DNA of 64,000 nt, taken from positions 1 to 64,000 of the forward strand of contig JAKIUC010000013.1 of the NCBI GenBank assembly GCA_021647785.1, written 5' to 3'. Both the position numbers and the translations under genes were made by a program. Source of the DNA: Melioribacteraceae bacterium (GTDB lineage Bacteria > Bacteroidota > Ignavibacteria > Ignavibacteriales > Melioribacteraceae). Shown in pieces: positions 1 to 379 of the stretch; the first letter of the stretch is position 1; every line of letters starts with the position of its first letter. Under the pieces are notes generated by a model. It searched no databases, was not told the DNA's origin, and saw only the letters and a list, made by a program, of their open reading frames with translations.

Positions 1-75
1 TGAAGGTACACACGCTTTCTCCTATTGGATCCCTTTGGGGCAAGCGTGCCAGATAAGCCACTCCTGCACCTCTCC
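1..75 (-). tRNA. tRNA-Ser-like gene, interrupted in the anticodon loop, cut by the window edge
   Basis: Read on the minus strand from 75, the sequence gives a serine tRNA 5' half: acceptor GGAGAGG, TG, a D-arm with CAG/CTG stem and GAGTGG loop, then anticodon stem CACGC/GCGTG. The anticodon loop is TTG, a 21-nt insert (20-40), then GAAA. Removing the insert leaves the 7-nt loop TTGGAAA with anticodon GGA. The variable arm starts GTACCTTCA and runs out of the window. Positions 7-86 match 190-269 with a single mismatch, so this is a tandem copy of the gene at 129-258, but the variable arm differs. It may be a pseudogene or an RNA with an unusual insertion. Confidence 0.6.
20..40 (-). repeat. 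21-nt double mini-hairpin insert in the anticodon loop (upstream copy)
   Basis: On the minus strand it reads CCCCAAAGGGA-TCC-AATA-GGA: a CCC/GGG mini-hairpin followed by a TCC/GGA one. It sits between positions 34 and 35 of the tRNA-Ser-like gene and is identical to 203-223. Confidence 0.6.
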
Positions 76-145
76 GAGCAAAAAAATAATATTTCTTAAC
101 AAACTAAAAAAATGTTTCAAACATTTTGCGGAGGGGGTGGGATTC

Positions 146-167
146 ATCCGAAGGAATCCCTTTGGGA
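146..167 (-). repeat. 22-nt double mini-hairpin insert in the T-loop
   Basis: On the minus strand it reads TCCCAAAGGGATTCC-TTC-GGAT. It aligns with the anticodon-loop insert (203-223) over CCCAAAGGGAT and over the TCC/GGA second hairpin, differing mainly in the second loop (TTC against AATA). The same kind of element therefore occupies two single-stranded loops of one tRNA. Confidence 0.6.
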
Positions 168-202
168 GAATCCACGGTACGCTTTCATGTACACACGCTT
201 TC

Positions 203-223
203 TCCTATTGGATCCCTTTGGGG
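203..223 (-). repeat. 21-nt double mini-hairpin insert in the anticodon loop (downstream copy)
   Basis: Minus strand CCCCAAAGGGA-TCC-AATA-GGA, identical to 20-40. Its exact edges can slide by a base or two because flanking G and A residues are shared with the tRNA loop. Confidence 0.6.
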
Positions 224-270
224 CAAGCGTGCCAGATAAGCCACTCCTGCACCTCTCCAAGCAAAAAATA

Positions 271-304: not shown

Positions 305-305
305 G

Positions 306-379
306 TGGGCCCACACGGACTCGAACCGCGGACCCTCTGATTATGAGTCAGATGCTCTAACCAACTGAGCTATAGGCCC
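306..379 (-). tRNA. tRNA-Ile2 (CAU, lysidine type)
   Basis: This is a 74-nt cloverleaf: acceptor GGGCCTA/TGGGCCC, D-arm GCTC/GAGC, anticodon stem TCTGA/TCAGA with loop CTCATAA (anticodon CAT), T-arm with TTCGAGT, discriminator A, no encoded CCA. CAU could be elongator Met or Ile2. The C4-G69 and C5-G68 pairs and the U27-A43 pair are those known to be recognised by the lysidine synthetase TilS in E. coli, so Ile2 is preferred. Met is the alternative. Confidence 0.85.

Follow-up and report, generated by a model that had tools for sequence, protein, structure and literature searches.

The tRNA-Ser(GGA)-like sequences at the start of contig C25 of genome G000 (4.25 Mb, 99 contigs) are best read, on comparison with related genomes, as the edge of a tandem array that a mobile cassette targeting the tRNA-Ser(GGA) gene has left behind. 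The window analyzed here is the first 64 kb of that contig (64,000 nucleotides). The cassette is in turn best interpreted, from the same sequence comparisons, as a GIY-YIG open reading frame (ORF) of 80-90 aa together with a partial or full copy of a tRNA. It probably represents a tRNA-specific homing element resembling the phage nuclease gene segB, which would keep one tRNA intact and produce a displaced copy, in many cases with a hairpin in the loop where the cut is presumed to fall.

The tRNA-Ser(GGA) array on contigs C25 and C7

Copy A (129..258, minus strand) is a tRNA-Ser(GGA)-like sequence that, by sequence comparison, contains two loop inserts: a 21-nt hairpin in the anticodon loop, placed after TTG (203..223, minus strand), and a 22-nt double hairpin that divides the T-loop as TTC^GAA (146..167, minus strand). 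The original prediction, a minus-strand tRNA-Ser(GGA) body split at these two places by hairpin inserts that preserve the stems, holds to the base: ARAGORN reports no tRNA in copy A as it stands, none when a single insert is removed, and tRNA-Ser(gga) once both are taken out. Window-wide runs of ARAGORN and Rfam did not report copy A. The second hairpin of its T-loop insert has one mismatch at the base, and the insert matches most T-loop inserts of relatives in length, position and architecture. Compared with the intact tRNA-Ser(GGA) of a congener, copy A shows six differences, five of them in the variable arm. The acceptor mismatch, raised earlier as a possible sign of decay, is not specific to this copy, the congener's intact tRNA (L070) having the same first seven bases; an A in the T-stem (GTGGA for GTGGG) is peculiar to copy A among copies A, C and D.

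Copy A is a member of a tandem array, not a single gene. A second tRNA-Ser(GGA)-like sequence, copy B (1..75, minus strand), is cut by the contig start and contains, as read from the sequence, a 21-nt anticodon-loop insert (20..40, minus strand) with the same sequence as in copy A. An intact tRNA-Met (305..379, minus strand) lies immediately upstream of the array and is followed by a terminator-like hairpin at ~271-304. The pattern seen in copy A exceeds chance: with up to one mismatch, CCCAAAGGGAT has four matches in the window, against 0.84 expected and a count of four reached in none of 100 shuffles, and its three exact matches there all lie inside the Ser(GGA) array. A scan of the window for further double-hairpin junctions returned two, both on the plus strand, a count near chance (0.5 expected per strand, largest 2) from which the array's own inserts are missing because they carry mismatches. 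Elsewhere in the window, the spacer between tRNA-Leu and tRNA-Val (660-800) holds palindromes (ATCCCGC..GCGGGAT, GTCTGTGAGACTCT-like) in common with L004 on C26, near tRNA-Gly/tRNA-Cys.

BLAST of the region against the genome places the remainder of the array at the end of contig C7. There, an 81-aa ORF stands between copies C and D; before copy C comes the 3' end of a further copy, its T-loop plain, and after copy D a 3' fragment. Inserts are present in both the anticodon loop and the T-loop of copy C and in the anticodon loop only of copy D; all four copies of the genome with a visible anticodon arm have the anticodon-loop insert. Stripped of their inserts, copies C and D differ from the congener's intact tRNA (L070) at 2 of 88 bases. 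In G004, a genome of the same genus, the 3' part of tRNA-Met and the same terminator-like hairpin are followed by an intact tRNA-Ser(GGA), present once, and then by the gene next to the C7 array, an order that supports joining C25 and C7 and shows the locus free of an array. For this site (L088, G004:C101 ~82788), the tRNA-Met region has its main match 40 kb off on the same contig, the 3' part before tRNA-Ser(GGA) perhaps reflecting an earlier event at tRNA-Met. The GIY-YIG ORF was invisible to a first reading of the window because it is located beyond the contig end; the pseudogene considered in that reading is formally the right term for copy A, and misses the cassette.

No intact tRNA-Ser(GGA) was found in the assembly, in which contigs break inside the array, among the candidates scored (150 of 309 from Rfam, 40 of 57 from BLAST). 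The 36 tRNAs called by ARAGORN around Rfam hits (150 of the 309 candidates scored) include no Ser(GGA), Ile(GAT) or Ala(TGC), and the absence of the latter two is consistent with repeats that failed to assemble. We predict that the working tRNA-Ser(GGA) of this genome lies where the array failed to assemble; a candidate for it is the plain-T-loop copy with whose 3' end C7 begins, the anticodon arm being out of view. Among relatives, Ser(GGA) is intact in 22 of the 29 loci examined, also beside insert-bearing copies (L069).

GIY-YIG nucleases beside tRNA genes

The 81-aa ORF on C7 contains the GIY-YIG domain PF01541 at residues 3-67 (Pfam, which found the domain in all three proteins tested), and NCBIfam offers no name for it. 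Cassette nucleases are stand-alone proteins of 80-90 aa, encoded on the strand of the tRNA. Y6 is conserved in 110 of 110 sequences, Y17 in 112 of 112, G19 in 110 of 112, R27 in 111 of 112 and E63 in 109 of 112; Y17, G19, R27 and E63 are, we assume, the catalytic residues of the GIY-YIG family. The near-invariance of these residues, together with dN/dS values of 0.06-0.34 in 18 hand-picked pairs (tandem copies included), points to selection on a working enzyme.

Within the order Ignavibacteriales, 101 of 146 genomes match the nuclease at E<=1e-12. We examined 86 loci (30 + 56) in rank order of similarity to the G000 nuclease among the matches listed; some loci share a genome, L131 and L184 overlap, and the census leaves out sites inside loci already fetched as well as the genome's own tRNA-linked copy on C83. 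An intact tRNA lies within 500 nt in 77 of the 86 loci, on the strand of the ORF in all 77 and within 62 nt of it in 68. In 73 of the 86 there is sequence that matches a portion of an intact tRNA in the same stretch, a count that includes cross-matches between similar tRNAs (e.g. L186). tRNA fragments are also present in six of the nine loci that lack an intact tRNA, with none in L152, L170 and L181.

By a strict rule, loop inserts are present in 39 of the 86 loci, and 34 of the 73 loci with fragments show none; these counts depend on the fetched stretch containing a like tRNA in intact form, and loci at contig ends are therefore missed. The same requirement makes it partly a matter of construction that insert-bearing copies in relatives mostly adjoin an intact tRNA of their own kind. 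As a control, 30 partly overlapping tRNA loci of G000 yielded nine with fragment matches and none with inserts; three of the nine lie around the G000 GIY-YIG/tRNA-Gly locus, four in one cluster of similar tRNAs, and two elsewhere. A GIY-YIG ORF is present in 11 of the 29 loci found by pattern, counting L107, where it is >3 kb away, and L113, which has a 29-aa partial match on the other strand. The second tRNA-linked nuclease of G000 (L128, G000:C83:53156-53362) directly follows tRNA-Gly(TCC); inspection by eye shows an incomplete tRNA-Gly copy upstream whose anticodon arm has a hairpin. In a wider search, 45 of 198 genomes match at E<=1e-15; all 21 loci examined outside the order contain an intact tRNA within 600 nt together with fragments of it, under a looser fragment rule.

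The partner tRNAs comprise Ser (four anticodons), Glu, Cys, Arg, Gly, Lys, Asn, Leu, Met, Gln, Ala and Pro. When 112 nucleases are placed in a tree (rows of <60 aa and six duplicate-contig rows dropped; L147_0 relabelled by hand from the nearer Gln to Glu, after the fragments that flank its ORF), 24 changes of label occur among the 82 rows assigned to a tRNA (18 labels), against a mean of 59.7 and a lowest value of 55 in 200 shuffles. Nuclease lineages thus stay for the most part with a single tRNA. Phage GIY-YIG proteins account for 16 similar records, all below 60% identity, in a comparison that does not contain SegB. Carriage by phages or plasmids was considered and rejected, the searches returning only distant GIY-YIG proteins of <60% identity (16, 4 and 5 records), and one scan of viral contigs found no relative of the nuclease.

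Cassette forms, hairpin inserts and empty alleles

The cassettes take two forms. In the 3' form, an intact tRNA is followed by the ORF and by a displaced 3' part whose start falls in the D-loop, the anticodon loop or beyond. The 5' form begins with a displaced 5' part, which commonly ends near positions 34-41 and commonly bears a D-loop hairpin, and continues with the ORF and the intact tRNA. Units may be repeated in tandem, with three ORFs in L145 and two each in L141, L119 and L069, and unit lengths of 306 and 390 nt between the repeated ORFs of L145 and L069. Rfam tRNA hits in seven loci all fall on intact tRNAs called by ARAGORN (7/7). The split between intact tRNA and copy is not clean at L087, where Rfam missed an intact tRNA-Ser and ARAGORN called one D-loop-marked copy a tRNA. 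Displaced copies plainly without an insert are found at L160, L178 and L203. In four loci of the 5' form (L157, L166, L187 and L188), the nuclease frame enters the intact tRNA-Ser, the first bases of which encode the last residues, WQSG.

Related inserts, suggested at the outset as something to look for, are present in tRNA-like copies of relatives. Of the 50 distinct inserts, the T-loop has 24, the D-loop 14, the anticodon loop 9 and other places 3; they are 10-56 nt long, with a mode of 22 nt in the T-loop. Inserts often occupy set positions: in the T-loop they follow TTC, in the D-loop positions 15-22, and in the anticodon loop of Ser(TGA) copies in relatives CTTG, the point at which copy A is split too. 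The T-loop inserts split the motif RAWTSGAAC, the reverse complement of such T-loop sequences as GTTCGAATC. Two consecutive hairpins, mostly of 11+11 nt and also of 9+9 or 15+15 nt, are found in 22 of the 24 T-loop inserts, against 0.94 in shuffles; the two-hairpin parse fits four of the nine anticodon-loop inserts (0.33 expected) and none of the 14 in the D-loop (0.38 expected).

Among 32 distinct T-loop inserts of 22 nt, 97.4% of cells are paired, against 87.0 in shuffles. Both sides have changed in seven of the eight hairpin pairs of the T-loop inserts, with the three TTC/GAA pairs invariant, as in none of 500 shuffles; this covariation count covers 22-nt T-loop inserts only (47 of 63), from a pool that mixes loci chosen by protein with loci found by pattern, in which the share of the first hairpin is raised because the locus pattern contains GGTTCTCCCAAAGGGAYTCC. 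The paired share and the covariation score were unmatched in 500 shuffles, the number of pair types was reached by five, and slid controls were at most 66.5% paired. The covarying pairs therefore indicate that the two-hairpin structure is kept while its letters change; as read from the sequence, both halves of many inserts could instead pair as one longer hairpin. In L125 and L104, the T-loop inserts are enlarged inside the second hairpin (42 vs 22 nt), as if by a further insertion.

Presence of the cassette is optional at a fixed site, as for free-standing homing endonuclease genes. At tRNA-Glu(CTC) in genus g2, the ten genomes comprise three empty alleles, two filled ones, one remnant and four cases outside this simple scheme. 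In the empty allele (G058, G045 and G005), the tRNA is followed by its flank, with a clear terminator-like hairpin in G058 and G045. In the filled allele (G069 and G086), a 308-nt insertion gives the order intact tRNA, spacer, GIY-YIG ORF, tRNA positions 38-57, 22-nt double hairpin, positions 58-75 and the same flank, and the ORF precedes the tRNA's terminator-like hairpin. The insertion point is ambiguous over 18 nt because positions 58-75 are repeated; one limit of this range is TTC^GAC in the T-loop, and if placed there the hairpin is the last piece of the element. The remnant, in G128, is without the nuclease, and both of its hairpins differ from the filled ones by paired changes. As to the exceptions, flanks are rearranged in G051 and G084, and degenerate copies lie at contig ends in G091 and G130, that of G130 with a hairpin in the anticodon loop. 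At Ser(GGA), G003 is empty and G002 has two units before the intact tRNA, the flanks of the two genomes matching over 572 nt at 79% downstream and only briefly upstream; a third pair is formed by the single intact tRNA of G004 and the array of G000.

Repeats of related structure also occur apart from nuclease genes. L071 (G037:C1 ~3452970-3453654) consists of nine tandem 3' parts of tRNA-Cys at 92-nt spacing after an intact tRNA-Cys, each with the T-loop double hairpin, in a unit without a nuclease ORF. The same hairpins recur in repeats of ~112 nt at L214 (G037:C1:2802700-2804500), where the unit is not evidently part of a tRNA and a tRNA-Thr lies nearby on the other strand. In G000, six of the seven sites of CCCAAAGGGATNCC fall, by eye, outside tRNA copies (L001, L003-L007; contigs C16, C25, C26, C37, C44 and C88), those of L001 and L007 within a larger inverted repeat, and a dispersed form of this hairpin seems to exist too.

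Proposed homing into tRNA genes, competing readings and known systems

In the mechanism that we propose, the nuclease would cut an unoccupied tRNA gene at a loop, and repair of the break from a cassette-bearing allele would insert the ORF with part of the tRNA while regenerating the tRNA itself; the hairpin would then disrupt the site of cutting in the displaced part. Further rounds of cutting, with recombination among the copies, would lead to arrays such as that at Ser(GGA), so that copies A-D may be seen as masked by-products. Several observations run counter to this scheme. The protein is little more than its catalytic domain, four of the ten g2 genomes depart from the simple pattern of empty and filled alleles, and in G000 every copy with a visible anticodon arm has the insert, with no intact Ser(GGA) among the candidates scored. 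The intact tRNA keeps the same loop and should be recut unless the native flank is recognised; recognition reaching into that flank would keep a cassette-flanked intact tRNA safe. Masking, for its part, has to contend with the many displaced parts without a hairpin and with D-loop inserts that are not double hairpins of the T-loop type. With slightly more confidence than doubt, we would extend the homing reading to a phylum-wide set of minimal selfish cassettes (~300-400 nt), which would home into individual tRNA genes, regenerate the tRNA and place a self-protection hairpin of conserved structure in the displaced copy, at the D, anticodon or T loop where cutting is presumed, yielding tandem tRNA/nuclease arrays as well as nuclease-free hairpin-tRNA repeats.

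The size of the protein bears on how it might find its target. Typical homing endonucleases have a separate DNA-binding part; 81 aa leave little room for a second, DNA-binding domain, and the nearest solved relatives by sequence are two UPF0213 proteins. The GIY-YIG protein could instead recognise the branched or cruciform DNA of tRNA arms, the double hairpin being its recognition end and not a mask. Such a structure-directed cassette would accord with a hairpin architecture conserved through changes of its letters, with the hairpin-bearing tRNA-Cys repeats of L071, whose unit has no GIY-YIG ORF, and with the GIY-less copy of G128, where the changes in both stems are paired. We nevertheless regard it as unlikely, since some lineages have no hairpin and nuclease clades follow tRNA identity, which points to sequence recognition.

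The CCCAAAGGGATNCC sites outside tRNA copies, and the double-hairpin elements described in mitochondrial genomes (PMC7218506, PMC2800124, in the passages cited), would suit a dispersed family of palindromic repeats that lands in the loops of decaying tRNA copies, the GIY-YIG genes being independent neighbours. This is quite improbable given that 77 of the 86 GIY-YIG loci lie beside a tRNA, all on one strand, and that the same loop positions are hit in different tRNAs; the comparison of empty and filled alleles, in which ORF and hairpin occur together, had already weakened it. A dispersed repeat alone is rejected as a full account because of the tie between tRNA and GIY-YIG gene.

A working tRNA-Ser(GGA) gene, with inserts tolerated in the RNA or removed from it as first proposed, could draw on the near-perfect bodies of copies C and D outside their inserts and on the lack of an intact Ser(GGA) among the assembly candidates scored. 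It is very improbable: contigs break inside the array, the gene is intact in most of the relative loci examined and even beside insert-bearing copies (L069), and inserts occur in all three loops and in truncated 5' or 3' parts that cannot be tRNAs, many copies being such parts around a GIY-YIG ORF; moreover, 21-22 nt are far below the length of a group I intron, and Rfam finds none. Hardly credible is a domesticated RNA role, in which the masked copy, as a structured element at the 5' or 3' side of the GIY-YIG transcript, would serve processing or stability and the nuclease would have a host function, an idea that fits an ORF sharing the strand of the tRNA and lying no more than 62 nt from it in 68 of 77 loci, its place before the terminator-like hairpin at the Glu locus and the low dN/dS, but not the optional presence within a genus, the tandem amplification, the 5'/3' mirror forms, the varied truncations or the unmarked copies.

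The homing cassette may be set beside several known systems. Rickettsia palindromic elements, offered earlier as a parallel, are palindromic inserts in genes, including RNA genes, and the likeness is only loose: they measure roughly 100-150 nt, whereas the inserts here are 10-56 nt long, and we know of no tie between them and a nuclease or duplicated tRNA parts. Integrative elements at tRNA 3' ends also regenerate the tRNA and leave a displaced tRNA end; in the present case, by contrast, 5' and 3' mirror forms occur and a hairpin lies in the displaced part. An integrase-type element was rejected at the level of the units, which are too short for an integrase gene (306 and 390 nt, and 308 nt for the Glu insertion).

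Group I introns in bacterial tRNA genes are described in the cited part of PMC3984707 as mobile elements with homing endonucleases, and they resemble the present case in targeting a tRNA gene and interrupting it with a loop insert; here, however, the inserts are 21-22 nt long without a ribozyme, and the tRNA is kept by duplication and not by splicing. A group I intron or other known RNA was rejected on the grounds that Rfam at the gathering threshold gives only tRNA in the window and seven loci and that the insert has 21-22 nt. The double-hairpin elements of Allomyces mitochondria share with the cassettes two adjacent short hairpins and optional insertion (PMC7218506, PMC2800124), a likeness that extends to the T-loop inserts (22/24) and not to those of the D-loop (0/14); the passages cited from these papers mention no nuclease partner, and in the cassettes the hairpins occupy a fixed loop position in tRNA copies.

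A close parallel in the sources cited is SegB of the T-even phages, in phage T6 a GIY-YIG homing endonuclease encoded in a tRNA array (PMC13096335, PMC2988022). According to the relevant parts of PMC13096335, SegB prefers RAWTSGAAC, a motif present at 23 of 83 sites that enhances cleavage and is not required for it; cleavage peaks occur inside tRNA genes, and a unit of tRNA-Tyr and segB undergoes tandem amplification only with an active SegB nuclease. The likeness to the cassettes lies in the GIY-YIG core, the position of the gene among tRNA genes, the match between RAWTSGAAC and the T-loop, and the tandem tRNA-nuclease repeats (PMC13096335, PMC2988022, in the parts cited). In contrast to SegB, the present nucleases are found on bacterial chromosomes, are 80-90 aa long, form clades tied to particular tRNAs and are accompanied by a displaced part that is often hairpin-marked; the survey in PMC13096335 covers phage and archaeal-virus proteins and, in the part cited, reports no favoured isotype. 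A free-standing GIY-YIG homing gene among tRNA genes is thus known from phages, and the chromosomal, tRNA-keeping, hairpin-marked form is, as far as the literature was searched, a new variant. Among the open-access PMC papers listed, we recognised no description of chromosomal cassettes of GIY-YIG genes with displaced, hairpin-marked tRNAs.

If the homing reading is correct, solo GIY-YIG nucleases, small proteins widespread in bacteria, would gain a concrete target and life style, each lineage parasitising one tRNA gene, and a nuclease of ~80 aa would offer many natural specificities (18 tRNA labels in the tree). The cassettes would also account for tRNA-like fragments and for tandem arrays, features that can interrupt assemblies and lead tRNA annotation astray. 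The phage finding (SegB, the T-loop motif and tandem tRNA amplification) would be linked to bacterial chromosomes, and there would be a testable idea of how a selfish gene uses an essential gene without destroying it.
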